This document shows positions 40,801 to 56,514 of a stretch of DNA of 64,000 nt, piece by piece (within the stretch, counting starts at the first letter, position 1; each line of letters opens with the position of its first letter). This stretch comes from Isosphaeraceae bacterium EP7 (lineage in GTDB: Bacteria; Planctomycetota; Planctomycetia; Isosphaerales; Isosphaeraceae), in assembly GCA_038400315.1 (NCBI GenBank), contig CP151667.1, positions 2,553,174-2,617,173 on the forward strand, in the 5' to 3' direction. The notes under the pieces were generated by a model. That model ran no database searches. It was not told the DNA's origin and worked only from the letters and a program-made list of their open reading frames with translations. Both the position numbers and the translations under genes were made by a program.

Positions 40801-43800
40801 GAGGAACGCGGTGGTCCAGGTATCGGAGTCGGCCGCGAGGAGCACGAGCGTGCGATTGGCGGCCGGGTCGGCGAGGATCTTCTCCCTGAGCCGGAGTGCG
40901 TCGGCGGTCTGCCGGGCGATGAATTCGTCGCGGGTCAGCGCCGTGGCAGTCGCCACCAGGTGGAACTGGAAGGCGACCTTCTCGGGCTCGAGCGCAAATT
41001 CCTCCAGGAATTCGGGATCTTCCGCGAGCCGTTCGAGCAGGCCGGGATAGATCACCGTGTTGAAGGTGCGCCCGGCATAACTCCGCGCGTAGAGGTCGAA
41101 GGCGTAGCCGGGCGCCAGGTTGTAGCCGCCGGTGTTGATCGTCGAGTTGAGGCTCGCCCACGGGACGTCGCCCAGATCCGCCGACCCGGGCCCACCCGCG
41201 AGATTTTGGAAGAAGTCCAGGTAGCGCAGGCCCAGGTTCGGATTGATCCCCAGCTCGGGGACGCCGAACGCGAAGTAGACATAGGGGGCGTCGACGTTGC
41301 TCACGCTTTCGAGCGAGAAGCCATAGGTCCCGGTCTGACCGGGGGCGAGCACCCGGGGGCCCCCAAGCCCGATCCGGACGTCGGTCTCCATCGCCGTCTC
41401 GACGAGGTAGCGATAAGGGGAGACCGCTGTGTCGCCGTTGGGGTTGACCACCCGGATGTCATAGAGCCCGTGCGGCGCGTCGCGGAGGTCGAAGGTCGCA
41501 ATGATCTTCGTGCTGTCGACGACCTCGTAGCGGGTCGGCTCGTACTCGGCGAAGCCCGGGCGGATGAGCTTGACGATCGCGTTGGGCTGGAACTGGGCGC
41601 CGAGGATCGTGGTCGTGACCCATCGCGAGTCGCCACCGGCGTCGGGGGAGACGGCGGTGATCGAGAGCGGGAGCACCTCGGCCAGGAGCGTGGTCGGAGT
41701 CGACGGGGCCGGCTCGGAGTGACCGCGGACCAGGATGTAATAGGTCCCCGGCCGGGTTAGCGGGATGATCACCGTCTGATTCGGCGCCAGCGGGCCCTGG
41801 TACGAGGCGTCGTAGGTGATCCCGTCGGGGACGTCGCCGTAGCGGAGGAATAGCTCGTTGGCCGCGTTCTGGGCGGGCGTCGTCAGCGTCACCCGCAGAG
41901 TCTGGCCCAGCCCGACGACGACCTTGTAGAGCCGCTCATCCCCGGTGGAGAGGGTCGTCTCCAGGGGGATGTTCAGGTGCAACTCGTCGACGGTGACGTT
42001 CAGGGGGTCGGCGGAGGCGGTCCGATTATTCGACTCGTTCGTCCCCTCGTAGACCTCGTTGAAGATGTCGGGACGGACGATGATCCGGTACTGTCCCGGC
42101 CGGGCAGGGGGCAGGGTCGCCCGAAGGGCCGCCTCGTACGAGCCGCCCGACAGGAGAGTGCCGGAGTGAGAGACCCGGCCCAGCAGCCTGTCGTTGACGT
42201 CCCAGACGGCGTCCTCGGAGAGGTAGACGGCGTCGGTCCAGCTCCCCTCGGCCTGGAAGTCTCCCCGGTTGAAGACGGTCCAGGTGACGTCGACCACTTC
42301 GCCCGAACGTGCCGAGCCGGGCAGGCGGATCGTGTCGACCTGGAGGTCGGAAGGGGGGGGGACGTCGAGGATCATCGGCCTCGGGGAGGGGGAGGCATTG
42401 TTCCCCTCCTTGTCGAGCTCGAATACCACGCCCCGGGCCCGCCCACGCGATGCGTCGGTGTATACGAAGACGTAGAACGGGCCCGCGAGGTCACGCGGGG
42501 CGCGGAACGTCAGAGTCTCGGTGTACGAGCCCCCCGACGCGAGCCCGCCGGTGTGGCGGATCGAGCCCAGATAGCGGTCGCTATCCAGGTCGAGGAAGGC
42601 GTCGCGCGACAGGTAGATCAGGTCGTCCCAGCTCGACTGCTTCGGCGGCGTGTCGCCGGCGCCGGCGTTTCTGACCGTGTAGGTGACCTCAAAGGCCTGG
42701 CCGATCAGGGTGTGCTCGGGGGCCGATACGGCGGTGACTAGCAGGTCGGGCGGGGTCCGAAGTTCGATCGGCTGCGCCGACGCGGTGATGTTGTTTCCCT
42801 CGTCCGCGAATTCGGGCACGCGAGCCATGCCCACGGAGATACCGTACTCGTACCGGAGCGAGGGATCGGCCGGGGGGACAGGCCCTGTGATATTCGAGTC
42901 AACGAAGACCAGGAGATAGAAATCCCCCTCGATGCCGTCGGGGAGGTCCACGTCGAGGCTCGCGTCGTATGAGGCCCCCTTCGCGAGGCCCACGGAGCGA
43001 ATCCAAGAGCCGAGGAGCTGGTCGCCGGAGTCGAGCGACGCGTCGCGAGACAGGTAAACGCGGTCAATCCATTCCAACTGCCGCGTGTCGCGGGTGCCGA
43101 TGTTGGTGACCGTCCAGGCGACCCGGACCCGGTCGCCCGACAGGGGCGTCCCCCCCGGCGCAATCAGGTCGGTGACCTTTAAATCGGGCTCGCGATAGAC
43201 CACCGGCAGGGGTGCCATACCGAGGTTGTTCGACGCGTCTTCATAACCCCGGGAGATGAAGGAATCGCGGCTGATGTCATTGTAGCCGCCCCGTTCTCCA
43301 TTCGATCCGTTCGGGTCGGTGATGACGTAGATGTAGTATTCGCCCCCGATCCCAGCGGGGAGCGTGAATTGCGCAGACTGCGTGTAGCTCTCGCCGGCCC
43401 CGAGGGTCGGCTGATTGCCGCGAATGACCGAGCCAATGTGGGTTGCCCGGCCTGGGATGAAGGTGTCGTCGGGCGAGAGGTAGACGTAATCGGTCCAGTA
43501 CCGCGTCCCCGACCAGGTCTCGGCGCCGGCGTTCTTGACGGTCCAGGAGACGGTCGTCTCCTCGCCGGAATAGCTCACCGGCTCGGTCCGGATCGACTCG
43601 ACGAGGAGGTCGGCCGGGTCGCGCCGGACGACGCTCGTGCTCCCATGGCTGACGTTGTTGTTGCCATACGGCCCCTCCCAGACCCCGGCTCCGGTGACGA
43701 CGATCACGTACTTGCCCGCAGCAACGGGCGTCAACGCGAAGGTCGCTTCCGCCGCATAGCTCTGGCCTACGCCGAGCTTGCCGGTGTGCTGGATCGAGCC

Positions 43801-46800
43801 GAGATACCAGCGCTCCGCGTTCGGCGTGGTCAGGTCGGGGAAATCCGAGAGGTAGACCGCGTCATACCACGAGCCCTCCTCGGTTTCATTTCGCCCCTGG
43901 TTGGCGACGGCCCAGCGCACCGTGAACGAGTCTCCGCCGACAGCCTGCGCCTGCGGAGTCACCGTGGTCACGACAAGGTCGGGCGGCGGCGTCAGCAGCA
44001 CCTTGATGGCCCGCGCCTTGTAGTTGTTGTTGTCGAGCTCGTTGGGGTCGTCGGTGTTGATGACGTTGCTGAAGGTGTCCTCCAACTCGACGTCGTACGT
44101 GTCGGCCCAGGGGGTGATGTAGAGCTCGCCCGAGACGCGCCTCGGCAGCGTGATCCGGACGACCTGCTCGTAGCTCTCGCCGACCCCGAGCCTCCCGGAG
44201 TGCGCGACCTGGCCGACCACCATGTCGTACTGGACGTTGTCATCGGTCTTGAACTTGCGGGGATCGGGCCGGACCTTATTCACCGCGAGCCAGATCGTGT
44301 CGGTCCAGTTCGCCTCGTACGTCGGGTTGGCGCCCCGGTTGGTGACCCTGAATCGGACCTCGATCTCGCTGCCGTCGAACGCCTGCGAAGGCACGACGAC
44401 GTCGCTGATCACAAGGTCTGAGGGGGGGAGGGGGTCGACGTAGATCTCCTGCACGAAGACGTTGTTGTCCTCGTTAGGGAACTCGTTGACTGCGGCCCCG
44501 GAGTCGGCCCTCACGATCAGGAAGGCCGGGCCTCGATACCGCTTCGGGACGACCAGCCCCGGCGTCTTCGTGCGGTAGGTCTCGCTCGGCAGGAGCGCCG
44601 AGCCGTTCTCCATGGTCCCGATCAAGATGTCGTCGCCCGAGATGACGCCATCGAGTGAGAAGTAGACCGAGTCGGACCAGCGCGGGGCGGTGGTCGGGAC
44701 GGTCCCCTGATTGATGACGACGAATTCGAGCGAGACCGTGCCGCCGGCCTGAACCCGGCCCGGCGCGGTCACCGAGCTGACCTGAAGGTCGGGGTGGGGG
44801 GCCAGCCGGACGAGCGTCGTGGCGTCGTCGGCCGTCGTGTTGTTGCCCGAGGCCCCGTGCTCGTAGAGGGAGAGTCCGGAGTTGGTCGTCACCTCGAGGC
44901 GATAGAGCCCCTGGATGTTCTCAGGGAGCGTGAACTGCTCCGAGCGAGAGTAGGTGCGCCCGGCCTGGAGCCCCCCTCCAAAGCTGAAGGAACCGAGCGG
45001 GATCGCACCCGTCCCGTCCACGCGACGCAGGGAGAGCGTGTCGGTCCAGGTGCCGATCGCGTCGCCCGGCCCGGCGTTGCGGACCGTCCAGGTCACGTCG
45101 ATCTTCGAGCCCGAGACGACGTCCGCGGGGGCGATGATGTCGGTGACCGTCAGGTCGGGGGGAGGCGTCAGGGTCACCTCGATCGGACCACCGACCCGGG
45201 TATTATTCTGGGTGTACTCGAACTCATAAGGCCCGCCTGTCGCCACCACGACGTAGTACGTCCCGCTGATCCCGTGGGGGAGGACCGCGGTGGCGGTGCG
45301 CTCGTAGCTCGCGCCGACGGCCAGGTGGCCGCTGTGGTCGAAGCTGCCAAGCGAGATCAGGCCGGTCTGTCCCGTCGGGTCGGTCGTCAGGTAGACCGAG
45401 TCTCGCCAGGATGGCGTGCTCGTGAGCCCGATCCCCTGATTGGCGACGGTCCATCGAATCGTCAGCGACTTGCCGCTCTGCCCGGAGGCCGAGGGCTCGA
45501 CCTGGCCGACAATCAAGTCGGCGTAGGGAGACGGCACGACGTCGAAGAAGCCGGGGGCTCGGCCAGCGTTGTTCCCTTCGTAGTCGAACTCGTCGACCGC
45601 GTTGTTCGCGTCGGCCTTGACGAAGAGGGTGTACCGGCCCTGGAAGCCGGGCGGAAGGCGGAACGTCTCCGACGCTGCATAGCTCTCGCCCACGCTGAGG
45701 GCCGACGGACGCTCGAAGCGGCCGAGAACGATGTCATCGCCGTTGCCGACGACGGTGTCCTTCGAGGCGATGACCACGTCGACCCAGGGCACCGCGCCGC
45801 TGGGCCCGGTCCCCTGGTTGGTGACAGTCCATCCGACCGTGACGCGCACCGGGTCGCCGATCGTCAGCGGTGGGGCGGTCACCGCCGAGGTGACGAGGTC
45901 GGCGAACGGGGAGGCGGCGATCCGGGTCTGCGAGGATGCCGCGACGTTCGACTCGGCCCCCGGCTCGTAAATCTGGTCGCCCGCGTCGGCGACGACGAGG
46001 AACCGATAGGTGCCTCCGACTAGCGTGCGCGGAAGGGTGACAGTCCGCGTGACCTCGTACGAGGAGCCGGCCACCTGCGGGCCGGTGTGGTCGACCTCGA
46101 CAAGCAGCATGTCCCCGTCGTCGACGGTCGCATCGCTCGACAGATAGACGCGGTCCACCCAGGTCCCGAGGGCAGGGGCCCCTCCCTGAGAGGAGACCGC
46201 CCAGTGGACGACAATCTCATCGCCGGCGACGGCGATCGCCGGCCCCGTGATCGTCGTCGGCTTCAGGTCGGCGTTCCGAATCGCCAGCGGGACGTGAAGG
46301 GAATTATTCGACTCGCCGGAGTGCTCGTAGACCTGGCCGTCGGCGTCGGCGACGACGAGGAGCCGGTATCCGCCGGCCGTCACCCGGGGAATGACCACAT
46401 CGGCGAACGCCTGGTACTGGGCGGCCGAGGCGAGCGAGCCCGAGCGGGCGACGGCGGCGAGCAGGGTCGCCCCCTCGACCCGGCCGTCGGTCGAGAGGTA
46501 GAGCCGGTCGACCCAAGGGCCAGCCGCCGCGCCAGGGCCCGCGTTCGTGCCGGTCCAGCGCACCCGGATCGTCTCGTCCGGCTGGGCCGACGCCGGTACG
46601 GAGATCGACTCGATCTTCAGGTCGGGGGGCGGGGTCAGCGTCACGGCGATCGGGGACACGGTGCGCCCCGCGTTGTTTCCCTCGGAGTTCCCCTCGTCGA
46701 TCGCATCCTCGGCATCGGCGATCACGAAGATGTGGTACGAACCCGAAATCCCCTCGGGGAGGACGAAGCTCCCCGAGCCGGTGTAGGACCCTCCCGCGGC

Positions 46801-49800
46801 CAGGGCCGACGTGCGGGCGACTCGGCCCAGCTCGACGTCGGACGGGTCGAGCACCGCATCGGCCGAGAGCACGATCCGGTCAACCCAGGACGAGGCGCGG
46901 GCGGAGGCGGTCCCGCGATTTCCCACGACCCAGGATACGCTGACGGCCCGCCCGCTGGCGGCCGTCCCCGGTGGGGAGACCGAGTTGACGACGAGGTCGG
47001 CGAGCGACCGGGGAGTGACGCCGAGAATCACGCCATCGGAGAGGTTGTTCCCCTCGCCTGTCCCCTCGTCGAGCGTCCCCGAGGCATCGACTCGGAGAAT
47101 GAGCCGGTAGGTCCCGTCGAGCCCGCCGGGGAGAGTCACCGTGCGCGAGACGGTGTAGGACTGCCCGGCGCCGAGGGCCCCGGAGCGCTCGACCTCGATG
47201 ATCGCCACCTCGGGACCGGGTGTGGACCCGTCGCGAACAAGTACGATCCGATCGAGCCACCGTGAGACGCCCGGGGCGGCCCCGCCGCCGTTCTTGACGG
47301 TCCAGGTGAGGGTCACTTCCGCCGGGTCGCCGATCACGCTGGAGGCGGAGGCAGTGAACGTCTCGACGGCGAGGTCGGGCCGCGCTGCCTGGCTCGGGAC
47401 GATCTCGGCCTGGACCAGGTTGTTCCCCTCAGCGGCCTCGTGGCCCTGGGCGTTGAACTCGTAAAGCCGGTCATCCAGGTCGGTCGTAATCTCGACGGTG
47501 TAGCGGACCCCAAGCTGCAGCGACAGCTCAAGCGAGCCGGCCCTCGAGGCCCCAACGGCCAGCCCCCCCTCGACATTCCGGGTCGTGCTGGAGACGAGGC
47601 CATTGTTGTCGGCACGACGGACAATGATCCGCTCGCGCCAGCCCTCCGAGGCGACGCTCGATCCCCGGTTGAACGTCCGCCAGGAGAGGGTCAGTCGGCC
47701 CGAGCTATCGGCAGACGAGCCCGAGACCCCCTCGACAACGAGGTCGGCGTACGGCGAGCGGGTGATGTGGAAAGTCCGCGCCGAAGCCCTCGTGTTGTCC
47801 CCCTCGTTGAAGAACTCGTTCACCTCGTTGAACGCGTCGGCCGCGACGAGGAGATAGTAGTCGCCCTCGATACCGTCGGGCAGGGTGAGCGATGAGCTCT
47901 CCGTCCGGCTCGCGCCGACGGCGAGCGACCCGGATCGGGCGAACTGGCCGAGCGGGATGTCGTCCGCGTCGCCGTAGATCGCGTTCTTCGAGAGGACGAC
48001 CCGGTCCGACCACCCCCCGGCGGTCGCCAGGTTCCCGGAGTTGGTCACGGTATACGTGAAGGTCACGGCCTCCCCGCTCTTCGGGGCGGCCGTCGTCGGC
48101 AGTTCGACGGAGGATACGACCAGGTTCGGCACCGTTGCCGCGCCGGAGGGGCTGACGACCACGTCGAGGACATACAGGGCAGTCAGGCCCCCGGTGCCGT
48201 CCCGGCCCCAGACCACCGCGAAGTATGTCCCCGAGCGGGTGATCCGCACCCGGGCGAGGGCGTCCCCAGAAAGCCCCCCCAACTCCTCGACGAGGTAGCC
48301 GCTTGCGGCGTCATAGAGGCTGACGGCGGGAACCAGCCCGCTCCCCGCCGGGGTCCGTACGGCGAGGGAGACCGTCTGGCCCGCCTCGATCCGGCCGAGC
48401 GCGTAGGTGTCGATGTCACCGGGGAGCAGAATCACACCCGCCGTGCTCGCCAGCCTCGTGTTGCCGCTGGTCTGGAGGGGCAACGCGGTCGACTGGGTGA
48501 GCGAGTCGCCCGGGTCGACCGCCAACGTCAAGGGCGCCGACGCCAGCGAGGCTCGGAACCGGTACTCGCCCTGATAGCCGTAGTAGCCCTGACTCAGTTG
48601 GATCGTGTAGGTCCCGTCGCTGGGCAACGACACCGGGGCGAGCTGGGACGGGTTCTTGTACGCCGAGAAGGAGGCGATGAGCCGTCCATCCGGTCCGAGA
48701 AGCGAGAGGTTGACGGAGGTCGTCGAGAAACTCTGCGTGACGGAGTCGATCGCCTCGGCGACGATCGTCGCCTGGTCCCCCGCCTTACCGACGAACTTCC
48801 AGGTGTCGAGGTCCCCCGCGATGATGTAGCCGCGACCAGCCCCTGAACTCAGCCCTGTGAAGGTCGTCGTCAGGGGGAGCACCGTGGCGGTCCCGGCCGA
48901 TTCGTTGGGCTCAGCCTCGGCGGTGAAGCCGGCCAGCGCCTCCACGCGGAACTCGCGGACGAGCGGGGCGGCCAGCGGGTTGCCGACCCGGTCCCTCAGC
49001 CCCGCCTTCGCCGTCAGCCGGTACGACCCCGGCGCCAGCGGCCTGGCCGGCGCGAAGCTGGCGGAGGTCCCGCCCGTGTAGGGGGGCGAGGCCGACAGCG
49101 CGATGACCACGTCATCGCCGGTGCCGAACGACCCGTCGGGGCCGGCGGAGCGGAGCTCGACGTTGGACGGGTCGTTGACCGCGGCCGGGTCCATCTCCTC
49201 GGAGAAGCTCAGACCGACGGAACCCACAAGACGGGACGTCGTACCCCCGGGCTCCGGGAGGTTGCTCAGGCTCACCGTTGGCGCCACCCGGTCGGTGACG
49301 GAGATCGACAGGAGATACTGCGAAAGCAGGCCGAAGGTACCCCCCGACCTCTGGAGAGAGGCCGAGTACGATCGGGGGGTGGCGCTGGCCGGCACTGTGT
49401 ACGTCAACGTGGTGACGCCCGACGCGGAGGAGGCGACCTGGGTCTGACTGAAGCCCTCGATTTGGAGAATGGTGAGGAGGGCCGACAGCCCGCTACCGGC
49501 GGGCTTCGCCAGGGTCAGCGTGATCACCTGGCCGGCGTTCAGAATTCCCAGTGAAATCGTGTCTGATTCATATTCATTATTAAAAGAACCTACAATGGTT
49601 GCGTTGAGCGTCCGGGTCGAGGAATCGGCGACGAGCTTGACGTCCCCCTCGGCCTGCAGCGGGGCGGCCACCAGCGAGGCGCGGAACCGGTACTCACCGG
49701 AGTAGCCGTAGTAGCCCGGCTGCGCGCGGATCGTGTACTCGCCGTCGGCGGGCAGCACCAGAGGCGAAGAGAGGGATCCGGACCGTGAGGCGGAGAACTG

Positions 49801-52800
49801 CCTGAGGTAGGAGCCGTTGCCGTCGTAGACGTAGAAGTCCACGTAGGTCGTGTAGAAGCTGACGGCGGCGGAGTCGGGGGCCTCGGCGGAGACGGCCAGA
49901 CGCTCCCCAGCCTTCCCCGTGAACTTCCAGACGTCAACATCCCCCGCCGACAGATGGCCACGCCCCAGCCCCTGCCGGAGCCCGGTGGACAACGAGGCGA
50001 AGGGGAGCGCCGTGGCGGTCGCGGTCGACTCGTTGGGCTCGGCCTCGGCGGTGAAGCCGGCCAGCGCCTCCACGCGGAACTCGCGGACGAGCGGGGCGGC
50101 CAGCGGGTTGCCGACCCGGTCCCTCAGCCCCGCCTTCGCCGTCAGCCGGTACGACCCCGGCGCCAGCGGCCTGGCCGGCGCGAAGCTGGCGGAGGTCCCG
50201 CCCGTGTAGGGGGGCGAGGCCGACAGCGCGATGACCACGTCATCGCCGGTGCCGAACGACCCGTCGGGGCCGGCGGAGCGGAGCTCGACGTTGGACGGGT
50301 CGTTGACCGCGGCCGGGTCCATCTCCTCGGAGAAGCTCAGACCGACGGAACCCACAAGACGGGACGTCGCCTGCCCCGGGGCGGGCAGACCCGGGGCGGA
50401 GACGACCGGCGCCACCCGGTCGGTGATGGAGATCGACAGGAGATACTGCGAGAGCAGGCCCCAGGTCCCGTCCCCGGCGCGGACGACCAGGATGTATCGG
50501 CCGTCCTCCCCGGCGGGCACGGTGAAGGCGAGCGAGCCCTCTCCCGGCCCGGCGGCGGCGACCTCCTGGCCGTCGTCCTCGCGGACGATGGCCAGGGAGG
50601 CCACCAGCGGGCTCGCCGAGGGACGGGAGAGTGTCAGAGTGATCGCCTGCCCGGCGTTGAGGAGCCCGACCTCGAATTGGTCCTCCTCGTACTCCTCGGT
50701 GATCGCGCCGGCGACGGTCATGCTCAGGCGCTTGGCGGCGACGTCGGCGACGAGCTGGGCGTCCCCCTCGGCCTGCAGCGGGGCGGCCACCAGCGAGGCG
50801 CGGAACCGGTACTCACCGGAGTAGCCGTAGTAGCCCGGCTGCGCGCGGATCGTGTACTCGCCGTCGGCGGGCAGCGCCAGCGGCGAGTAGAGGGACCCGG
50901 ACGGCGAGGCGGAGAACTGCGCCAGGTACGAGCCGTTGCCGTCGTAGACGTAGAAGTCCACGTAGGTCGTGTAGAAGCTGACGGCGGCGGAGTCGGGGGC
51001 CTCGGCGGCGATGGCCAGACGCTCCCCAGCCTTCCCCGTGAACTTCCAGACGTCAACATCCCCCGCCGACAGATGGCCACGCCCCAGCCCCTGCCGGAGC
51101 CCGGTGGACAACGAGGCGAAGGGGAGCGCCGTGGCGGTCGCGGTCGACTCGTTGGGCTCGGCCTCGGCGGTGAAGCCGGCCAGCGCCTCCACGCGGAACT
51201 CGCGGACGAGCGGGGCGGCCAGCGGGTTGCCGACCCGGTCCCTCAGCCCCGCCTTCGCCGTCAGCCGGTACGACCCCGGCGCCAGCGGCCTGGCCGGCGC
51301 GAAGCTGGCGGAGGTCCCGCCCGTGTAGGGGGGCGAGGCCGACAGCGCGATGACCACGTCATCGCCGGTGCCGAACGACCCGTCGGGGCCGGCGGAGCGG
51401 AGCTCGACGTTGGACGGGTCGTTGACCGCGGCCGGGTCCATCTCCTCGGAGAAGCTCAGACCGACGGAACCCACAAGACGGGACGTCGCCTGCCCCGGGG
51501 CGGGCAGACCCGGGGCGGAGACGACCGGCGCCACCCGGTCGGTGATGGAGATCGACAGGAGATACTGCGAGAGCAGGCCCCAGGTCCCGTCCCCGGCGCG
51601 GACGACCAGGATGTATCGGCCGTCCTCCCCGGCGGGCACGGTGAAGGCGAGCGAGCCCTCTCCCGGCCCGGCGGCGGCGACCTCCTGGCCGTCGTCCTCG
51701 CGGACGATGGCCAGGGAGGCCACCAGCGGGCTCGCCGAGGGACGGGAGAGTGTCAGAGTGATCGCCTGCCCGGCGTTGAGGAGCCCGACCTCGAATTGGT
51801 CCTCCTCGTACTCCTCGGTGATCGCGCCGGCGACGGTCATGCTCAGGCGCTTGGCGGCGACGTCGGCGACGAGCTGGGCGTCCCCCTCGGCCTGCAGCGG
51901 GGCGGCCACCAGCGAGGCGCGGAACCGGTACTCACCGGAGTAGCCGTAGTAGCCCGGCTGCGCGCGGATCGTGTACTCGCCGTCGGCGGGCAGCGCCAGC
52001 GGCGAGTAGAGGGACCCGGACGGCGAGGCGGAGAACTGCGCCAGGTACGAGCCGTTGCCGTCGTAGACGTAGAAGTCCACGTAGGTCGTGTAGAAGCCGA
52101 CGGTGGCGGAGTCGGGGGCCTCGGCGGCGATGGCCAGACGCTCCCCAGCCTTCCCCGTGAACTTCCAGACGTCAACATCCCCCGCTGTGAGAAACCCTTG
52201 CCCGGCACCCCATCGGAGGTCGGCGGGTCCGGTAGTCAGGGTCAGGGGAGTGGCATTTGAAGCCGTGTTGTTCGGCTCGACTTCCCGCTGGAAGCCGGAC
52301 TCCGCGGGGCTCAGGACACGGAACTCGCGAGTGAGGACCGAGCTCGCCACCGGGTTGCCCGCGCGGTCGGTCAGGCCCGAGCTGACCTTCAGCCGAAGCT
52401 TGCCCGGAAGGACGGGAAGGTTCCCCACGGTATACGTCACCGAAGCAGACGGGGCGGTCGTCTCGGAGGGGATAAGCGTATAGAGGATATCGTCGGCCGT
52501 GTCGAACTGGTCGTCGGACCCGGCCGCGCGGAGTTCGACCAGCGACCCGTCGTTCAGCGTCGAGGGGGCCATCAACTCGGAGAACGTGAGCGTGAACTGC
52601 CGGAACGACGGAACCCCTGTCCCGTCGGGGGGGAGCGTGGTCGAGACCAGCGTCGGAGCGGTCCCATCGGCCAGGAGCACGTTGAGGAGGTACTGCGCCT
52701 GCATCCCCAGCCGGGCCAGGCCCTCGACCTTGACGTAGTAGGTCGCATTGGTGGCGACGAAGCTGAGGGCGCCCGAGGTCCCGGAGGCGATTGGCGTGGT

Positions 52801-55800
52801 GCCGCCGACCTCCAGGATCGAGAGCCTCACGTCGCCTGGGGAGAGTGAGCTCCAGGGCGGAAGGACGAGGTTCAAGCTCACGGCCCCGCCCACGGCGGGC
52901 ACATCCAACTTGAACATGTCGACCGAGGAAATCCCCGTCGGGAAGGCCCCGGCGACGCGGGCCTGCAACCCCCCCCGGTACGCCTCGAAGTTCGTGATCG
53001 GCGTCGCCGAGGCTTGCGAATCGTTCGATTCCTGCTCAAGCTGAGCGCCCCGGACCGGCCGGGCGAGATCGAGGCGGAGACGGTAACGACCCTGCCCTCC
53101 AGAGACGCGCACGAGGAAGGTACCCGGAGTTGGGATCTTGAAGTTCGCGACCTCGGCCGCCGACCCGCTCGTGCTCGTCAGGACGCTCCCGCTGATACTG
53201 AGAAGCGCGATCGTGAAGTAGCCCGACGACCCATCTCCTTCGAGCCGGATCGTGACCCGATCCCCAGCCTCGGCATCGAAGCTCCAGTGGTCGAGGTCGG
53301 CGGCGTTCGCGATCGAGCCGACGCCGAGGGCCGACGAGATCCCGGACCCAGGCGCGAGCTCGACCGCCACCAGCGGCGATGCGCCTGCCGGCGTGTCGTT
53401 CCCGAGCCTCTCGATTGTCCCGCCGGGGGGCGCCGCGACGGAGAATCGCCCCTCATAGGGCTGCGCGACGCGACCCGCGCGGTCGGTCAGGCCCGATGCC
53501 CGCAGGCGATAGAGACCCGGCTGGAGCGGCGAGGTCGCGATCGCCAGCGAGGCCGAGGCGCCGTCCAGGGACGCCGCGATCGGGATCGACGCGTCATCGC
53601 CGGTGCCGAGCAGGCCGTCGGCTCCCGCGGAGGTCAACACAAACTGCGCCCCCCCCAGCAAAGAGGCGAGCAATTCCTCATTGTAGGTCAGGGTGATCCG
53701 GTCGACCGCCGACGCCACCACGCCCGGCCCGGCCAGGGGCGCAGTGCTCACCGTCCAGGGGGACCGGCCGGCCGCCTCGGCCCCCAGGTTAATCGTGCCG
53801 TCGAAGTGGTTGGGGGTCGCGTCGGCCACGACATTGCCCGTGCCCGCGTCGAAATTCCAGGCCCCGACGAGGCCAGCCTCCGCCCCGGAAACCGGAAGTG
53901 TCCTCCGGTCGCGGACCTCCGCGGCCGTCCGGGCCCTCGACCAGATTCGGAGAGCATCGACCTGGCCAGCCCAGGGCGAGGCCCCTTCGGCCCGGCCGAT
54001 GCGGAGCGGCCCCTCGACCCGCGGCACGGCCACAGTCGAGGTGGCCGTCCCATTCTCCTGGCCATCCCTGTAGAAGCGGTAGGTCTCGCCCGACTTCACC
54101 AACGCCAGGTGGTACCAGGAGTCGAGCGAGGGCGTCCAGGATGACGAGGAGAGCGTCACATCGTCGCCAATCTCGGTCCGGATCCGGAACACGGTCGATC
54201 CCGCGGACGTCCCGGATGCCCGCGCGAAACCGAAGACCCAGCTATCCTTGGCGGCATCCGGCCCCTCGTCCTTGCCGACGAGCGCCGCGATCGTCCCGTC
54301 CGGCAGGGCCGAGAACTTCACCCAGGCTTCGATCGTGGCCTGCTCGCCCGGGTCGAGCGAACGTACGGGGGGATCCGCCACGAGGACCTGATCGTCGATG
54401 CCGTCGAACGTCAAGGCCGAGCCGGCGCCGTCGGCCGGGAGCGAGGTGCCCGCGATCGCCGGGGCCGAGCCATCGGCGATCGCAACCCGGAGGAGATAAG
54501 TCGACCGTAGCCCGGCTGTCGAGGTCGTGTTGGCGGCCACCCGAACCTGATAGGACCCGTCGGCCGTCGCGGTGAAAGTCGCGTGATTCGAGCCGACGGC
54601 CTGGGCCACGACGGCCCCGTCGGGCCCGATCAGCCGGATCATCGCGTCGAGCGTGCTGAACGACGGGAACGCAAGCGACAGGTCGATCGCATCGCCCGTA
54701 CGGAGCTGGCCCAGGCGGTAGAAGTCGACGTCCGAGGAGGTCACGATCGAGCCCGAGACGCTCCCCGTCGCGCGTTGATTGCCGGCCGGGGTGAGTCGGA
54801 TCGGACTGGCCTGCAGCGAGGAATCATTCGACTCCTGCTCGGCGGAGAAACCTCGCGACAGATCGACGCGGAGGGCGTACGGGGCCGACGTGATGATACC
54901 CGGGGTGTTGTAGTAGGTCCGGGCCCGGAGGTAGTATGTCCCGTCGATCGTCGCCTGGAAGGCGGATCGGGGACGCGAGGCGGGGAATCCATAGTAATCG
55001 TCGGCCTGGACCAGGAGGGTGCCGGCCGAGTCGCGCAGCTCGAACACGAGCGAGTTGGAGTAAGTGCCCCCTTCGCCCGCCACGCCGATCCAGTCGCCGG
55101 CCTTGGCCTCGAACCTCCAGAAATCGACGTCGCCGCCAACGCCCAGCGAGCCGATGCCATACATCGAGAAGAAGCCGGACCCGGTGGGCGACTCGGTGGG
55201 CACCAGCGGCGTGGCCCCTGCCGCCGTGTCGTTCCCCTCCCCCTCGATCTTCCCCCCCTCGGGTGCCTTCACGGAGAACCGCCGTTCGAACGCGGGCGCC
55301 TCAAGGCCCGCGCGATCGGTCAGCCCCGACGTCAGGAGTCGGTAGGAGCCCGGCTGAAGTGGGCCCCCCACGATCGTCGCGATCACCTGATTCCCCGCGG
55401 CCATCGTCGGGACGAGGGCGATCGCACGGTCATCGCCCGTGCCGAACGAGCCGTCGGCGCCGGCCCAGGTGAGGGCGAGGTTGGCCGGGGTTGCGGAGGA
55501 GATCAGCAACTCCTCGCTATAGGTCAACTTGAACGAGTCGACCGCCTCCACGACGCTCGCCCCCTCGCCCGGCAGCGAGGATCCGAGCAACGCCGGGGCC
55601 GTAACATCAGCGACCTCGACCGAGAGGAGATACTGGGCAAAGATCCCGGCCTCTGCCGGCCCCGCTTCGGTGGTGGCTGAGACGCGGGCGAGGTATTGAT
55701 CCGCAGCGGCGACCGTGAAGACCGCGTGCGATGCCCCGACGGTCGAGGCTACGACCTGGCCGGTCGAGGTGCGGATCAACTCGACGCGAGTAGCGAGCGA

Positions 55801-56514
55801 ACTCCCCGGGATCGGCGTGGCCACGAGGTCGATCTTGTCTCCGACGCCGAACCGGCCAAGGTCAAAGTGATCGACATCCCCATCGCGGAGGATCGCCCCC
55901 GAGGCCCGACCCGAGGCTCGGCCAGCCCCCGCCTTCGTCAGCTCGATCCGGGAAGGCCCGTAGACATAGTCATTGGACTCGACCTCGGAGAGGACGCCCC
56001 GGCCGACATCGACGCGGAGCGAGTACTGATCGAGACTGTCGCCATACGTCCTCGCCCGGACCAGGTACGTTCCATCCGCGGCCGCAACAACGTTGGCGAG
56101 CGTAGGGATGCCGCCGTAGTAGTCGTAGACCTGCCCCAGCGACGTCAGGTTTGGATCCAGGAGCTCGAGAATGACCGATTGCCCGTAAAGGCCCCCCTCG
56201 GCCGCCACGGTGAGCCGGTCCCCCGCCTTCGCGCTGATGCTCCAGTAATCCTGGTCGCTGTAGGGGGTGATCGCCCCCCGGCCAGCCGCCGAGAAGAAGC
56301 CGGACCCGGGAATGGGCTCGGTCGCCACGAGTGGAGTCGCCTGGATGGGGAGGTCGTTCGGCTCGAGCTCCTGGGTGAGCGAGAGCATCATCAGCTGCTC
56401 AAGGCGCTCGACGCCGGGGTGCGAGACCCGGGGAGCTCGCCGGGGTGCCTTCCCCTTCCGGCCCGATGACGACTTCTGGTTGAGGCCCTTGCCCAATCCG
56501 ATGGATCGCGACAT
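25891..56514 (-). CDS. Giant mosaic surface protein, about 10,207 residues
   Basis: One uninterrupted frame of 30.6 kb. I prefer ATG at 56514 (MSRSIGLGKG), with ATG at 56559 as the alternative. The N-terminus is basic and carries VERLEQLMML, like a degenerate LEPR-XLL. Approximate residues: 48-2795 PPC and SbsA-like Ig modules (ELEPNDLP, RAGLEAPAFERRF) with a LamG domain at 700-910; 2797-4844 sixteen CARDB domains (each opening like PDLKVTDL); 4940-5040 IPT/TIG; 5730-5970 propeller-like; 6205-7060 He_PIG/cadherin-like repeats; 7252-7540 RHS-like segment (YGYDAGGNLISA); 7639-7702 dockerin-like EF hands (GDVNGDGMVD); 8320-8670 YncE-like propeller; 8886-9090 alpha/beta hydrolase with GHSRG; about 9933 HELGHNLGLFDEYN metalloprotease motif. 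Probably exported, over 1 MDa, for binding or degrading macromolecules; the role is inferred. Confidence 0.85.
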   Translation of the reverse strand: MSRSIGLGKGLNQKSSSGRKGKAPRRAPRVSHPGVERLEQLMMLSLTQELEPNDLPIQATPLVATEPIPGSGFFSAAGRGAITPYSDQDYWSISAKAGDRLTVAAEGGLYGQSVILELLDPNLTSLGQVYDYYGGIPTLANVVAAADGTYLVRARTYGDSLDQYSLRVDVGRGVLSEVESNDYVYGPSRIELTKAGAGRASGRASGAILRDGDVDHFDLGRFGVGDKIDLVATPIPGSSLATRVELIRTSTGQVVASTVGASHAVFTVAAADQYLARVSATTEAGPAEAGIFAQYLLSVEVADVTAPALLGSSLPGEGASVVEAVDSFKLTYSEELLISSATPANLALTWAGADGSFGTGDDRAIALVPTMAAGNQVIATIVGGPLQPGSYRLLTSGLTDRAGLEAPAFERRFSVKAPEGGKIEGEGNDTAAGATPLVPTESPTGSGFFSMYGIGSLGVGGDVDFWRFEAKAGDWIGVAGEGGTYSNSLVFELRDSAGTLLVQADDYYGFPASRPRSAFQATIDGTYYLRARTYYNTPGIITSAPYALRVDLSRGFSAEQESNDSSLQASPIRLTPAGNQRATGSVSGSIVTSSDVDFYRLGQLRTGDAIDLSLAFPSFSTLDAMIRLIGPDGAVVAQAVGSNHATFTATADGSYQVRVAANTTSTAGLRSTYLLRVAIADGSAPAIAGTSLPADGAGSALTFDGIDDQVLVADPPVRSLDPGEQATIEAWVKFSALPDGTIAALVGKDEGPDAAKDSWVFGFARASGTSAGSTVFRIRTEIGDDVTLSSSSWTPSLDSWYHLALVKSGETYRFYRDGQENGTATSTVAVPRVEGPLRIGRAEGASPWAGQVDALRIWSRARTAAEVRDRRTLPVSGAEAGLVGAWNFDAGTGNVVADATPNHFDGTINLGAEAAGRSPWTVSTAPLAGPGVVASAVDRITLTYNEELLASLLGGAQFVLTSAGADGLLGTGDDASIPIAASLDGASASLAIATSPLQPGLYRLRASGLTDRAGRVAQPYEGRFSVAAPPGGTIERLGNDTPAGASPLVAVELAPGSGISSALGVGSIANAADLDHWSFDAEAGDRVTIRLEGDGSSGYFTIALLSISGSVLTSTSGSAAEVANFKIPTPGTFLVRVSGGQGRYRLRLDLARPVRGAQLEQESNDSQASATPITNFEAYRGGLQARVAGAFPTGISSVDMFKLDVPAVGGAVSLNLVLPPWSSLSPGDVRLSILEVGGTTPIASGTSGALSFVATNATYYVKVEGLARLGMQAQYLLNVLLADGTAPTLVSTTLPPDGTGVPSFRQFTLTFSELMAPSTLNDGSLVELRAAGSDDQFDTADDILYTLIPSETTAPSASVTYTVGNLPVLPGKLRLKVSSGLTDRAGNPVASSVLTREFRVLSPAESGFQREVEPNNTASNATPLTLTTGPADLRWGAGQGFLTAGDVDVWKFTGKAGERLAIAAEAPDSATVGFYTTYVDFYVYDGNGSYLAQFSASPSGSLYSPLALPADGEYTIRAQPGYYGYSGEYRFRASLVAAPLQAEGDAQLVADVAAKRLSMTVAGAITEEYEEDQFEVGLLNAGQAITLTLSRPSASPLVASLAIVREDDGQEVAAAGPGEGSLAFTVPAGEDGRYILVVRAGDGTWGLLSQYLLSISITDRVAPVVSAPGLPAPGQATSRLVGSVGLSFSEEMDPAAVNDPSNVELRSAGPDGSFGTGDDVVIALSASPPYTGGTSASFAPARPLAPGSYRLTAKAGLRDRVGNPLAAPLVREFRVEALAGFTAEAEPNESTATATALPFASLSTGLRQGLGRGHLSAGDVDVWKFTGKAGERLAIAAEAPDSAAVSFYTTYVDFYVYDGNGSYLAQFSASPSGSLYSPLALPADGEYTIRAQPGYYGYSGEYRFRASLVAAPLQAEGDAQLVADVAAKRLSMTVAGAITEEYEEDQFEVGLLNAGQAITLTLSRPSASPLVASLAIVREDDGQEVAAAGPGEGSLAFTVPAGEDGRYILVVRAGDGTWGLLSQYLLSISITDRVAPVVSAPGLPAPGQATSRLVGSVGLSFSEEMDPAAVNDPSNVELRSAGPDGSFGTGDDVVIALSASPPYTGGTSASFAPARPLAPGSYRLTAKAGLRDRVGNPLAAPLVREFRVEALAGFTAEAEPNESTATATALPFASLSTGLRQGLGRGHLSAGDVDVWKFTGKAGERLAVSAEAPDSAAVSFYTTYVDFYVYDGNGSYLRQFSASRSGSLSSPLVLPADGEYTIRAQPGYYGYSGEYRFRASLVAAPLQAEGDVKLVADSSTRTLNATIVGSFNNEYESDTISLGILNAGQVITLTLAKPAGSGLSALLTILQIEGFSQTQVASSASGVTTLTYTVPASATPRSYSASLQRSGGTFGLLSQYLLSISVTDRVAPTVSLSNLPEPGGTTSRLVGSVGLSFSEEMDPAAVNDPSNVELRSAGPDGSFGTGDDVVIALSASPPYTGGTSASFAPARPLAPGSYRLTAKAGLRDRVGNPLAAPLVREFRVEALAGFTAEAEPNESAGTATVLPLTTTFTGLSSGAGRGYIIAGDLDTWKFVGKAGDQATIVAEAIDSVTQSFSTTSVNLSLLGPDGRLIASFSAYKNPSQLAPVSLPSDGTYTIQLSQGYYGYQGEYRFRASLASAPLTLAVDPGDSLTQSTALPLQTSGNTRLASTAGVILLPGDIDTYALGRIEAGQTVSLAVRTPAGSGLVPAVSLYDAASGYLVEELGGLSGDALARVRITRSGTYFAVVWGRDGTGGLTALYVLDVVVSPSGAATVPNLVVSSVELPTTAAPKSGEAVTFTYTVTNSGNLATAGGWSDRVVLSKNAIYGDADDIPLGQFARSGSLAVGASRTESSSLTLPDGIEGDYYLLVAADAFNEVNEFFNEGDNTRASARTFHITRSPYADLVVEGVSGSSADSSGRLTLSWRTFNRGSSVASEGWRERIIVRRADNNGLVSSTTRNVEGGLAVGASRAGSLELSLQLGVRYTVEITTDLDDRLYEFNAQGHEAAEGNNLVQAEIVPSQAARPDLAVETFTASASSVIGDPAEVTLTWTVKNGGGAAPGVSRWLDRIVLVRDGSTPGPEVAIIEVERSGALGAGQSYTVSRTVTLPGGLDGTYRLILRVDASGTLDEGTGEGNNLSDGVILGVTPRSLADLVVNSVSPPGTAASGRAVSVSWVVGNRGTASARASSWVDRIVLSADAVLDPSDVELGRVARTSALAAGGSYTGSGSFVLPEGISGSYHIFVIADAEDAIDEGNSEGNNAGRTVSPIAVTLTPPPDLKIESISVPASAQPDETIRVRWTGTNAGPGAAAGPWVDRLYLSTDGRVEGATLLAAVARSGSLASAAQYQAFADVVIPRVTAGGYRLLVVADADGQVYEHSGESNNSLHVPLAIRNADLKPTTITGPAIAVAGDEIVVHWAVSSQGGAPALGTWVDRVYLSSDATVDDGDMLLVEVDHTGPQVAGSSYEVTRTVTLPRTLVGGTYRFLVVADAGDQIYEPGAESNVAASSQTRIAASPFADLVTSAVTAPPLTIGDPVRVTVGWTVTNQGTGPSGAVPWVDVVIASKDTVVGNGDDIVLGRFERPSALSVGESYAASETFRLPPGFQGRYTLFVKADANNAVDEFDYEGNNAGRAPGFFDVVPSPYADLIVGQVEPSASGQSGKSLTIRWTVANQGIGLTSTPSWRDSVYLTTDPTGQTGLISLGSFDHSGHLAVGASYERTATAVLPHGISGTYYVVVATGGPYEFEYTQNNTRVGGPIEVTLTPPPDLTVTDIIAPADVVSGSKIDVTWTVRNAGPGDAIGTWTDTLSLRRVDGTGAIPLGSFSFGGGLQAGRTYSRSEQFTLPENIQGLYRLEVTTNSGLSLYEHGASGNNTTADDATTLVRLAPHPDLQVSSVTAPGRVQAGGTVSLEFVVINQGTVPTTAPRWSDSVYFSLDGVISGDDILIGTMENGSALLPSETYRTKTPGLVVPKRYRGPAFLIVRADSGAAVNEFPNEDNNVFVQEIYVDPLPPSDLVISDVVVPSQAFDGSEIEVRFRVTNRGANPTYEANWTDTIWLAVNKVRPDPRKFKTDDNVQYDMVVGQVAHSGRLGVGESYEQVVRITLPRRVSGELYITPWADTYDVELEDTFSNVINTDDPNELDNNNYKARAIKVLLTPPPDLVVTTVTPQAQAVGGDSFTVRWAVANQGRNETEEGSWYDAVYLSDFPDLTTPNAERWYLGSIQHTGKLGVGQSYAAEATFALTPVAAGKYVIVVTGAGVWEGPYGNNNVSHGSTSVVRRDPADLLVESIRTEPVSYSGEETTVSWTVKNAGAETWSGTRYWTDYVYLSPDDTFIPGRATHIGSVIRGNQPTLGAGESYTQSAQFTLPAGIGGEYYIYVITDPNGSNGERGGYNDISRDSFISRGYEDASNNLGMAPLPVVYREPDLKVTDLIAPGGTPLSGDRVRVAWTVTNIGTRDTRQLEWIDRVYLSRDASLDSGDQLLGSWIRSVGLAKGASYDASLDVDLPDGIEGDFYLLVFVDSNITGPVPPADPSLRYEYGISVGMARVPEFADEGNNITASAQPIELRTPPDLLVTAVSAPEHTLIGQAFEVTYTVRNAGAGDTPPKQSSWDDLIYLSRDAFLDLDSDRYLGSIRHTGGLASGGSYTETLTFRAPRDLAGPFYVFVYTDASRGRARGVVFELDKEGNNASPSPRPMILDVPPPSDLQVDTIRLPGSARSGEVVDVTWTVFNRGDFQAEGSWTDAVYLSEDAVWDVNDRLLGRVSHSGTLLSGGSYEAALRATLPPARPGQYRIIVRPDIFNEVYEGTNESNNRTASADPLNVTVDELHLNIPLETTLSTGDERLYKVVVGLGQTLRVTLTTPAQNAANELFLRYGDVPDGITYDASYQGPLAPNQTVIIPLTRPGTYYILVRGHSEPAPSTPTTLLAEVLPLSITAVSPDAGGDSRWVTTTILGAQFQPNAIVKLIRPGFAEYEPTRYEVVDSTKIIATFDLRDAPHGLYDIRVVNPNGDTAVSPYRYLVETAMETDVRIGLGGPRVLAPGQTGTYGFSLESVSNVDAPYVYFAFGVPELGINPNLGLRYLDFFQNLAGGPGSADLGDVPWASLNSTINTGGYNLAPGYAFDLYARSYAGRTFNTVIYPGLLERLAEDPEFLEEFALEPEKVAFQFHLVATATALTRDEFIARQTADALRLREKILADPAANRTLVLLAADSDTWTTAFLSALEEVGLLRPVDQAPPIRTDPRLVSLVATLSSGLLIGPAGDPIRSEGDLVKFFEQVREWYGNDPNLLGPITSTDPLISPAQPIDEFDLNLSHPTHFESFNVYVPFGDLQLDIPPGNPPVPPDFASYFSTAGSSTPLATLTGPIGYGANGFVPASQALPYTIRFENPAQSATSANEIRIVTKLDDDLDPRSFRLGDLRIGDIEVHIPSGRGIFQGDFDFIRTKGFILRVSAGLDVQSNTATWLIQAIDPETGEVLEDVDAGLLRPNDAKGSGSGFVGYTAVPKAGIATGTEIRAEARVLLDNAPPQDTNVLVALVDGAAPRTTVIVEAIVEGGSDYQVRWSSVDEASGSGVRHATVYVSEDGGEYRIWLRQTTATEAIYQGRAGHEYRFLVLATDQAGNREKPDAGVQAPDDGSGANLGALPSVPETTEFDPGPPAPIGQPSSNPLYLEAERAIPAAVPGTRPSGFTELIRPFVGASFATGIAQSHAGIGPMAIVELPDRSVILSGGPGRNLLFRLSAAGGQVGEAFATLPLPIFDLALDANGGLWATTGGGPLLRLDPDTGAILGRFGDGLTQALAIQPGTGTIFVSSGKGIETFDPATSTFRHLSDVRVGSLAFAPDGSLWAASWPSRGNVLRFDLTASRVRPELMLELKTQVDSIAFGKAGTHLAGLLFVSNNAGPRAGVGSELIMVDLASLRRVAVARGGTRGDVVRTTSDGRVLISQTGQVDVLSPVMAPRVASTNPPTGGVVPLPMGSVSVTFDRDMFVGTATDPRSVLNPANYRLVGASGGAVTIRSVAYDRGSRTASLVFDSLAPDTYVLRVLTSLRSVEDLPLAEEYAGTFRAVNDFSTMVAVKLSRGRADAAHKTITYDVTVTNNSTSNLQPAIWLSLEGLNPLDVEPVSSGAVYRDGAWWIDLSTQVLGGLLGPGQTTSPRSITFSNPSGGRLSWKSGVLALPFPEAAPTFLSAPALTAQVGQPYDYQASAAGAAGTKLGYLLVSGPDGMTVDSATGRVRWLPTVASPIAATVVLQVYDSKGRSATQEFTIDVSGTNLAPVVAALPDKIEGREGMPLEIALQATDPEGDLLTYWAENLPPGAVFDPMQRALIWTPGFDAAGTYPDVRLIVGDGIHRVVRSTTLVIAPTNQAPTLVRPADRTILEGDRLRIAMIADDTEGDAVVYHSSMLPAGATLNPLTGVLEWTPGYFQHGTYQIPVTVTDGSLSTTREFNVTVLNANAAPSFDDLSGWQVREGQVLRFRAFAADPDNPGHIPQDRLPDGTLTPLEGTSSLVAYTVTGLPQGAAFDPATGMITWLPGYSAAGSYSITISARDDGDGTGMPLTTTVVVPITVLNTNRPPVFAPIANVSVDRGGVLDVPIRVIDPDGNPVAIAAAGLPGFGLPPFAAFVDRGDGTALLRFAPGTGHRGNYTITLRTTDEGDGDGAWAALSAEQTFIVTVVSPNDPPSLGHVGDTVAVIGQELRLALFARDLDEESLTFEADGLPAGARIEPSSIYGEATLIWTPNQGQAGIYDVTVRVLDGGNGDPASSVSASRTFRLVARASNAAPTLAAVGDVTVAEGTPLVLDLSAADPDGDRLTYSARNLPAGARLDAVTGRLSWAPNLFQAGIYAGIVVTASDGHGTASQTFRVEVTNTNQAPTLTPLAPQSGREGTPLQFTLVATDPDADPLTYSVASSLPDGARFDARTGRFLWTPGFEQAGDYLLAFRALDPDGLTSMVDVMLFIDNVNRAPSLDASHHSATLGEWLEFDLVAADADAGTTLTFAAQGLPQGAMLDPATGHVRWRPGAGQAGDTLVTFSATDGEATASRTVLLRASIAPPKPQVHIELTPSFPVVPGQRVLVHAIAGSLAQIVGLTLTVDGVPVPIDAQGRAEVVAGRFGRLILHATATDADGLIGTAEAVLKVRDPNDLASPDVALSPTLQGLKITAPTDLIGRAFDTNLDEWTLELAPLGSDTFLRIAGGHDSRSDGVLARLDPGSLANGFYRLRLTAADIGGRSKTADVTVEISGASKPAQFLHSETDLAVTLGGTGLSLVRAYDSLDAGRPGSFGPGWRLSNVEFNLQAGVEPTGREALGVYTPFRAGTRVYLTVPDGRRLGFTFTPKSSTVSGLTYYVPSFTPDAGNDYRLDASPAILTRVGDRFYEIKTARPYHPAAPEFNAEAYTLRAPDGTAYQLDADGTAREINLPGGQTFLVSDAGIADAATGEAVQFVHDEAGRIVSIVAPNGTRLIYGYDAGGNLISARNIATGRSGRYGYAPGSHLLNLVNASTASEGKVVVYGPVRQVQPLTADLGGSGQYLSSTTSGTLAAGATARFAFGVRPSELRATADGRILIGIEITTPTGSGLRPAVPSIPGLTPLISRVSANSAFALFAIDREGQHLLEVAGLGGTSGGYTLRMFAAGDVNGDGMVDGVDGQLIASAQGTSAGQFGYLVGADTDLDGVIDAADVQILGSNLGFAANRAPAVTAGEVLTHTGLSFSYDAAAKAADPEDDPVFIRVVGADHGVARLEADGKTITFTPDADYSGAASFWYVADDGYGTSTPGIVRVNVSDAPLVRLDITTRELSLDAGGRTTVVLVGDFADQQGVVLPGSYVTFAVSDPGVISVSSSGVVTALANGTSALLVSAKGLQAATAVAVGAPAGEQILLYWFGLDVYPDAVTLATGGSGRQLKITLDGSKDLTSSASGTRYYVSDPRVVEVGPDGLMRGLAAGSATVTVINGPSERLIEVHVEAARTGPAVVGTGGGAVRGADGSLVTIAPGALTSPATVRIEAVSKADLPMALPSFIQFVGAVALDVGDQELLQPAQLAIPVGPGVLPGSKIFVYRAGAVPKGDGTEMPVWFQVEVGVVGTDGFARTTSPPYDGVRIKGTYMWGMAPEATSQVKGRLEFTTGINDGGSSFNLISNMAGGIGVGVSMSLLAGFVMDIPVGSNDMRLVAIPRTGAPVIRDFVIEAQPGATAISVTVPTGVGLMPEADTPRISSIRVDLTSAPGTTRLVITGEAFGARKDELKVHFEMGGADLDFLNQVFYRRGALDITAEIESVSPDGKEIRLVLPHGVTLGVAYITVRRTIKQAILPDLIMTSLKAQVPATSDYSYAAGSKDLLVLDSRTQAPVAQVALSGAGFSKMTAATNDGTRAYVLRSDGTIDVIDTVAFQRIDADPSTPDVIDSIRLPNASPSHIVIDRRDEFAYVTDSITGTIYVIDISPTSRDYNSLDRTIDVGPAPKGLRGIAVSTDGKTLFVAAPARVSYERNAPSEKGRIFVIELGGGLLGLLDKKTAIDVGPSPFGVTSTSDPNAIVFTDYLSDLSGFNVLKKQGGAWGLAGSVQMALGSSEDAFDVNNVRSVVVTPDLKYAFVMGYNAPDMEIPSHNHFEPEDYPAGSNIGIIRDPLGAATLVAATRPIPAGFQYELAISGDGRYLYASMPTIPIAGGGLGAVFVYDVTAIDAAVSDPRNASLMTRYGINDIIDGRVKDAAGNLLHNAAIDLHAAYALQGGTKGADPVYEVYSGANAPLSLGGARGLATPVNVLELLGPVGTGNVLEPLFRWKIEGGRQPVETKLYLSTSPAGEGLFPEDLFELLDLNPNRILNGVSLGITSAGDGVYEYKLPTGRRLTAGQVYYWGVETTTADGYRSRKWYSFRTAPVKLAGPFNGVTIITHGFAAFGNSISDANQFVELGKEIATSAGGGVVLVYNKQNGTWEGGTPKLGEALVLVSDWVAESDIDDSGFSEAAADALFAALVRLDASAGIDGKLFQSALHFIGHSRGTVVTGELIQRFATYFPKNRVDGKAIDIQMTTLDVHDFNQPNLELPVVAQWDNFHEPMVHVWDNVAFADNYYQSLAEDNLIVGSLTPNGRTLSPGADPLHPDKDPKTGDGADLNLLLNGMSGFTRDDAGEIRLSLGAGVGFPLVGPHSRAWRWYAGTTAMDLLQFQSGPDGELVQRRLVDSLVFLASSGFMVRLARYRSVKDAVVKIASDNVKNIVDSLNAKPWYVPAQYASVPDAAPQEGIGVGWFYSRLGGGDDKRPVSGNRLEVYYDNTNSDDPNARVSPLESLVFDTAGTKFAPVQSIFNGDFESGTWYLTEKDRLSSTRFSLADASRLYAMPGWSFHGGFSGTSLDLSDDQVEGKGRLQDTGNNNYAVELSHRFTGNSIVHNWMYIPEMAAGLRFSMNVLEASDLDELRIVITTDDGTMHELNAGDCLNTTVINVSAAGLDTYLLKLPDEVRGKIGTLKFTLRSSAGKVHSKILLDEIFFQQGLNITDDSFEMKDHTVFLAQPGDVSRTFTITNPLGNTGMEITRIEVGANAFIRSIAGLPGGVVTALNDSASHVILAAPVRLAPGQSLTFTVTTELASNYFDTLNDQGAGIAHDQLLWSQIYVSSRPIFVSQTGSQVGKELKDELSVYRLVDAGDEDMNDGKLKFADTLAGHTREVIVSLEGDGCHEVGIQIEGANSKFAASEVSTGLYALGFSSDQEGSYDGIAKFYLRGKQIGAVDLSARATERQTVNLNLDSLRNELTALLLNPEVYFASANPDVYLPWFAPIQDLFTFTGSLQIVDEDWELFLGGLDQSLTGDIYKPFAEEGAISFESGGSNDINYFAFYVPDVGSAALIDQAWSSVIEKVDDLSNADIQLRSDISLASIRFVMDQATNPERGGALADWPGGNIANQVVLGEVLYLFSETFGEFSPASLANLGKFFGYAIGHELGHNLGLFDEYNAAKEPIFTDDLGFMAGGKNATNHVTQAEAATLWMAFDIPEHEIGLDQIKSYLGWYIELYVNQRDTRGTPAHPLPNSAWLQSAPAPVVMSGAFGTSVSMPSVPEVALSPSAAPLEMRLVALGAGSGGGVLDLAADRDLLEPGSAIFAVVAPSGGAAPLIATLAPPSVWPTDPVITPSFAEAASVRKTVPTGPAWRRRIPSAPSSARPVGAGRYQAVRVETASGSMNSDGSVIEAVRPGSRVVERALQSTELLSDIALGWWGL
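49922..52159 (-). repeat. Two near-identical 1,119-base tandem units, in frame
   Basis: Within the giant gene, 49922-51040 and 51041-52159 are almost base-for-base the same: for example 50231-50824 and 51350-51943 translate identically over 197 codons in the opposite frame as well. Each unit encodes 373 residues: a PPC-type domain (AGDVDVWKFTGKAGERLA), a second PPC half and an SbsA-like Ig domain ending VREFRVEALA. Differences cluster near the outer edges. A diverged third unit lies at about 48850-49921, with patches (about 48920-49225 and 49655-49740) that remain nearly identical to the other two. The unit length is a multiple of three, so gain or loss of a copy keeps the frame. Confidence 0.9.

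Follow-up and report, generated by a model that had tools for sequence, protein, structure and literature searches.

Length-changing repetitive surface proteins have been described chiefly in human pathogens, and immune pressure is among the usual reasons given for them. The Periscope Proteins are surface proteins of great length whose near-identical domain repeats stand in tandem and in frame, and the high DNA identity of the repeats is proposed to drive their gain and loss by intragenic recombination (Whelan et al. 2021, PMC8201768; review, PMC9704523). They are characterized by a repeat number that differs among strains, by repeat domains that each fold on their own and together make a rod, and by export to the cell surface, with an anchor and a functional tip. 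The screen set out in the methods of PMC8201768 used repeats of more than 50 residues with at least 80% identity. The giant genes of planctomycetes, as characterized in the passages on them in PMC5352709 and PMC5177795, are longer than 5 kb, encode surface-type domains and have no assigned function; four Isosphaeraceae are listed with 16-36 of them (PMC5352709). Here we describe a giant gene in a 64,000-nucleotide stretch of DNA ("the window") from Isosphaeraceae bacterium EP7 (contig CP151667.1, positions 2,553,174 to 2,617,173). The gene contains a near-identical tandem repeat in its array of modules, and a further block of 373 residues was probably added to it in recent times by a slipped exchange between two adjacent, older blocks.

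The gene is 30,669 bases long and exceeds the 5-kb size of a giant gene in a planctomycete. Giant genes are said to have been treated by Reva and Tummler in 2008. Residues 1 to ~2,800 of the protein are made up of modules that combine a PPC domain (PF04151) with a second beta domain and an Ig-like Big_5 domain (PF13205), in the order Ma, Mb, Mc, U1, U2, U3, U4. The gene and its modules, in natural (domain) register, are as follows.

25891..56559, minus strand: giant gene, 10,222 residues, one continuous open frame, translated
55249..56370, minus strand: module Ma, with PPC, PPC-like and Big_5 domains; 34-35% amino acid identity to U1/U2
53389..55248, minus strand: module Mb, with PPC, PPC-like and a Big_5 domain interrupted by Laminin_G_3 (residues 720-882)
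52285..53388, minus strand: module Mc; 32% amino acid identity to U1/U2
51166..52284, minus strand: unit U1, 373 amino acids
50047..51165, minus strand: unit U2, 373 amino acids, with a U3-type head and a U1-type body
48919..50046, minus strand: unit U3, 376 amino acids (1,128 bases), mosaic with respect to U1
48151..48918, minus strand: unit U4, the last module, shortened and lacking Big_5; the CARDB array comes next
50979 and 50985, minus strand: beyond the head, U1 and U2 differ only here; the bases in U2 are those of U3

An earlier, sequence-only reading had reported near-perfect tandem units of 1,119 bases at 49922-51040 and 51041-52159. This repeat is real, and the two copies differ by 2 mismatches, at 50979 and 50985. 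The full match at an offset of 1,119 bases pairs 49894-51066 with 51013-52185, a length of 1,173 bases with 2 mismatches, composed of exact runs of 1,085, 5 and 81 bases. This stretch is the longest exact direct repeat of the window, and all exact direct repeats of at least 30 bases in the window fall inside the module array. The unit edges of that reading were arbitrary. Its third unit, given as 48850-49921, is indeed identical in patches, but in natural register it spans 48919-50046.

In codon-aligned DNA in domain register, U1/U2, U2/U3 and U1/U3 are 96%, 84% and 80% identical; an alignment of 373 residues gives 94%, 80% and 74% at the amino acid level. Against U1-U3, the codon-aligned DNA identity of Ma, Mb, Mc and U4 is 46-57%, which bears out the view that the repeated units are far more alike than the modules around them. 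In this register U1 and U2 differ in 47 of 1,119 columns, and 45 of the 47 lie within the first 99 bases, a difference that gives a clue to the mechanism. The tract that the two units share has no synonymous and two residue-changing differences (Thr/Ala and Gly/Ser), supporting the suggestion that the duplication is very recent. The suggestion that the protein could change length without loss of frame is likewise supported, the unit lengths being divisible by three within a continuous frame.

When U1, U2 and U3 are aligned in domain register, 223 columns are not all equal. At these informative columns U2 agrees with U3 in 47 and with U1 in 176, and in none does it carry a base of its own. Along the coding strand the columns of U2 are ordered as 45 U3-like (3-99), 2 U1-like (154, 157), 2 U3-like (181, 187) and 174 U1-like (237-805). 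This makes four runs, where 5,000 shuffles gave a minimum of 54, and a model with a single switch fits 221 of the 223 columns. U2 is a hybrid, with the first ~99 bases of U3 type and nearly all of the remainder of U1 type. Two blocks are candidates for the site of the switch.

51013..51066, minus strand, in U2: 54-base block, the same in U1 (52132-52185) and in U3 (49894-49947), positions 100-153 of the unit alignment; most likely exchange site
50930..50978, minus strand, in U2: 49-base block, likewise the same in U1 and U3, positions 188-236; alternative exchange site

We take this mosaic, with a probability of about 70%, to be the footprint left when U1 and U3 underwent an unequal exchange in register. 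In the ancestor, U1 would have been joined directly to U3. Two chromosome copies would have mispaired by one module, or a replication fork would have slipped, and an exchange within a block identical between U1 and U3 would have produced a third unit, U2, in register and in frame. U1 would then be the older parent that gave the body of U2, and U3 the older parent that gave its head. The sequence does not tell RecA-type recombination and fork slippage apart.

U3 carries an older layer of mosaicism. Its patches identical to U1 measure 323-328, 116, 54 and 49 bases, and in none of 10,000 column shuffles is the longest run, or the sum of squared runs, as large as that observed. The two longest patches are located as follows.

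48914..49241, minus strand: 328-base tract, U3 plus 5 bases of U4, matching 50042-50369 and 51161-51488 exactly; older exchange or conversion
49641..49756, minus strand: 116-base tract of U3, matching 50760-50875 in U2 and 51879-51994 in U1 exactly

In five 20-codon blocks (codons 141-240), U3 and U2 are only 47-60% identical. Within the identical blocks of U3 the synonymous sites are identical as well. Because they are so beside sequence of ~47-60% identity, selection acting solely on the protein is an unlikely cause, and earlier exchange or conversion among the units is indicated. Before U2 arose, U1 and U3 would have exchanged or converted tracts, leaving the sharp boundaries between identical and ~47-60% identical sequence that are seen today.

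Gene conversion, which the sequence-only reading had offered beside duplication, holds up for the patches of U3 (with older exchange as the alternative), and it may account for the two clustered U1/U2 differences. It could also be extended to the repeat as a whole, with U1 and U2 as two old units that repeated conversion has kept alike and a unit number that has not changed recently. The conversion-like patches between U3 and the other two units fit such a history. So do the two U1/U2 differences, which lie within 6 bases of each other (a chance of ~1.2% for two random sites) and at which U2 equals U3, as in a short conversion patch. However, the converted tract would have to span the whole ~1.1-kb period and end exactly at the exchange footprint. 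One period of 1,119 and the 54-base block add up to the 1,173 bases of the match, and U2 has the head of U3, so that we consider maintenance by conversion unlikely.

Base composition in this region is extreme. The segment 50001-52000 has the highest GC of the window (0.737), and in some parts of U1 and U2 the third-position GC is as high as 0.99. Averaged over the units, third-position GC is 0.92 in U1 and 0.946 in U2, the highest of nine gene segments compared (0.78-0.89 in the others), and where U2 and U3 differ, U2 has G/C against A/T in U3 80 times and the reverse 31 times. GC-biased conversion was considered as a cause and the claim was dropped, since the array of the relative G309 (described below) is no richer in GC than the remainder of its frame (0.566 vs 0.581). 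An antisense open frame of 768 residues (49954-52260, plus strand) spans U1 and U2 and is most likely a by-product of the high GC.

We compared the array with related genomes, among which our own is the only member of its genus. The class sample comprised 397 genomes, searched with the module alignment at E 1e-30 with only 4 candidates scored per genome; eight genomes matched, our own included. Stretches were fetched from all seven others, covering whole genes in only some. Three of the seven (G309, G361 and G134) have tandem copies of more than 900 bases at 83% identity or above in the module-bearing frame. The family search (45 genomes) matched only G033 and G001 besides our own at E 1e-20, and a search of genome contigs found one distant locus only. 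There was no match in the plasmid collection. The C-terminal 869 residues of the giant protein match in 3 of 59 genomes, our own among them, the other two matches being weak. Within our own genome, the loci with PPC and CARDB matches outside this array contain no exact direct repeat of at least 40 bases (~3-4 kb per locus, which is not a census of the whole genome).

G309, a one-contig genome of 7.48 Mb, belongs to the same class and a different family. Its frame of 5,215 residues encodes an N-terminal motif, PPC/Big_5 modules, a shortened last module and CARDB domains, in that order, and contains units of 514 residues (1,542 bases). The neighbours of the middle unit are 98% and 82% identical to it in protein, and a partial unit 68%. 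The middle unit is a hybrid, a single switch fitting 434 of 440 L/R sites, with 8 further columns unique or unresolved. G309 is one independent case of a comparable hybrid duplication. G361 has two units of 524 residues that are 90% identical in protein (tandem modules ~91%), and G134 has repeats of 2,211-2,214 bases at 83% in a frame with FG-GAP repeats, Big_5 and PPC. The hybrid of G309 and the less similar tandem modules of G361 and G134 lend indirect support to a possible variation of copy number between strains, which the sequence-only reading had thought likely. In both of the other genomes of the genus of G309, and in both of those of the genus of G361, the unit is absent at E 1e-40.

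The units of G309 and G361 contain C-type lectin domains, which by eye appear to be nested in the second beta domain, ahead of its last strand, in both relatives (L089, 9472-11013; L088, 10549-12120). More tandem repeats, ~183 and 342 bases apart at 84-93%, lie outside the module-bearing frames at L089 17359-18096 and L088 14200-15479.

The giant protein begins with an N-terminal leader and continues with the PPC/PPC-like/Big_5 modules, a CARDB array and then Ig-like (He_PIG, Big_9, Big_2) and other domains. U1, U2 and U3 each consist of a PPC domain, a second beta domain, which is probably PPC-like, and a Big_5 domain. The second beta domain of U2 has no Pfam match above the cut-off. A moderate fold model of U2 is all-beta with three apparent domains, and aligns to PPC-like or other tandem beta domains such as the N-terminal domains of DeCLIC and the tandem collagen-binding domain of ColG. 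Whole-model TM scores of the best structure matches are low, mostly 0.2-0.26, and we therefore use the label PPC-like with reserve. In module Mb (window 53389-55248) the LamG domain appears nested inside Big_5, seemingly past its first strand when the sequences are compared by eye. Near the C-terminus of the protein, at ~26680-26724 on the minus strand (residues ~9946-9960), lies GHELGHNLGLFDEY, which we take to resemble a zinc-metallopeptidase motif. The last 1,369 residues have no Pfam match at E 0.01.

The giant protein is probably exported. Its N-terminal motif, VERLEQLMMLS, resembles the planctomycete extracellular motif by eye only, and the fetched frames of G309 and G361 start near a motif of LExRxLL type. 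Among these frames G309 alone matches PF07595, the family of that motif, with 24.2 bits, just below the cut-off of 25.5 bits. The first 853 and the last 1,369 residues of the giant protein yielded no anchor or export family. The modules may serve as spacers in a filament that is extracellular or lies at the surface. A gained unit would then lengthen the filament by three domains and leave its ends unaltered. Because related modules sometimes carry lectin-type domains, duplication could multiply binding sites too.

Several points weigh against an unequal exchange in a surface protein. Columns 154/157 and 181/187 call for either two further switches or two mutations of later date; the cause may be two substitutions that U1 acquired afterwards, two in U3 if the exchange took place in the 49-base block, or mismatch repair or conversion over a short patch. 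The comparison, in which our genome is alone in its genus, turned up no strain that lacks U2, and for this reason the two-unit ancestor is one that we infer from the mosaic. Four of the seven other matching genomes lack near-identical modules of more than 900 bases in the fetched stretches: G001 has one tandem copy (417 columns at 78%), and G033, G068 and G353 have none of more than 43 columns. PF07595 is unmatched in residues 1-80 of the giant protein at E up to 1, and the mean pLDDT (74.1) and pTM (0.41) of the U2 model are no better than moderate.

Finally, the repeat might be an artefact. A true arrangement of U1 followed by U3, with the repeat loop walked twice in assembly or polishing, would also close at an identical block, as observed. 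Against such an artefact, the genome stands in 5 contigs (7.2 Mb), as long reads would give. U2 is U1-like at 154/157 and U3-like at 181/187, a combination absent from both parents, and a switch across only 23 identical bases is hardly what one would expect from a simple loop in the assembly graph. The single-contig relative G309 also has a comparable arrangement. We regard an artefact as quite unlikely, and prefer unequal exchange between U1 and U3 as the origin of U2.

The genes neighbouring the giant gene encode PSCyt1/PSCyt2/PSD1 and DUF1501 domains, which point to a planctomycete, and a candidate mobile element lies nearby.

58449-59522, plus strand: ISXO2-like transposase domain (DDE_Tnp_IS1595), ~1.9 kb upstream of the start of the giant gene

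Its proximity could point to an illegitimate duplication, by a mobile element or by end joining, that was independent of the older modules. Yet the endpoints of the duplication fall within an identical block, at positions that correspond by homology between two modules, and the register is preserved, which makes an origin of this kind very improbable. Elsewhere in the window, a second large gene (13404-20678, minus strand; 2,424 residues with FG-GAP, SdrD_B and DUF4214) contains a 198-base tandem repeat of 2.4 copies at 78%.

Like the planctomycete giant genes described so far, the present gene combines a size above 5 kb and surface-type domains with no assigned function, and at 30.7 kb it approaches the largest of those named (~36 kb). 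Its internal near-identical modules are a feature of this gene that lies outside the treatment of giant genes in the relevant passages of PMC5352709 and PMC5177795. Our search of the literature, to which subscription journals were mostly closed, found no account of recombining modules in planctomycete giant proteins. A close likeness is the giant protein of G309, which shares the PPC/PPC-like/Big_5 modules, the shortened module followed by CARDB, and a hybrid middle unit among near-identical neighbours. It differs in its 1,542-base unit containing a C-type lectin, which is related to the present unit only at the profile level (145.5 bits).

The proposed exchange offers a concrete mechanism for the growth of planctomycete giant genes. 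More speculatively, and with considerable doubt, planctomycete giant proteins with PPC/PPC-like/Big_5 modules and CARDB might form an unrecognised class of surface proteins. Repeated in-register unequal exchange of whole cassettes would tune how long they are and how many binding domains (C-type lectin, LamG, FG-GAP) are inserted in them, and would make them vary within populations outside a setting of host immunity. A planctomycete case with a readable footprint, together with one hybrid in a relative, would allow length tuning to be asked about as a general device for adhesion or filament length in environmental bacteria.

Repetitive surface proteins of the Periscope type are the nearest known kind, and the giant protein probably works like one of them. 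On the identity threshold in the methods of PMC8201768, U1/U2 (94%) and U2/U3 (80%) qualify, while U1/U3 (74%) falls below. In contrast to the Periscope Proteins, there are here only two near-identical units and one mosaic unit, and because each unit comprises three domains in a cassette of 373 residues, near-identical domains never adjoin. The array is also close to the N-terminal end of a protein of 10,222 residues in which no anchor or tip domain was identified, and it is known from the sequence of one strain. Unequal exchange is already known as a route by which bacterial surface proteins change length; what this locus adds is an unusually clear anatomy, in which the breakpoint can be read.

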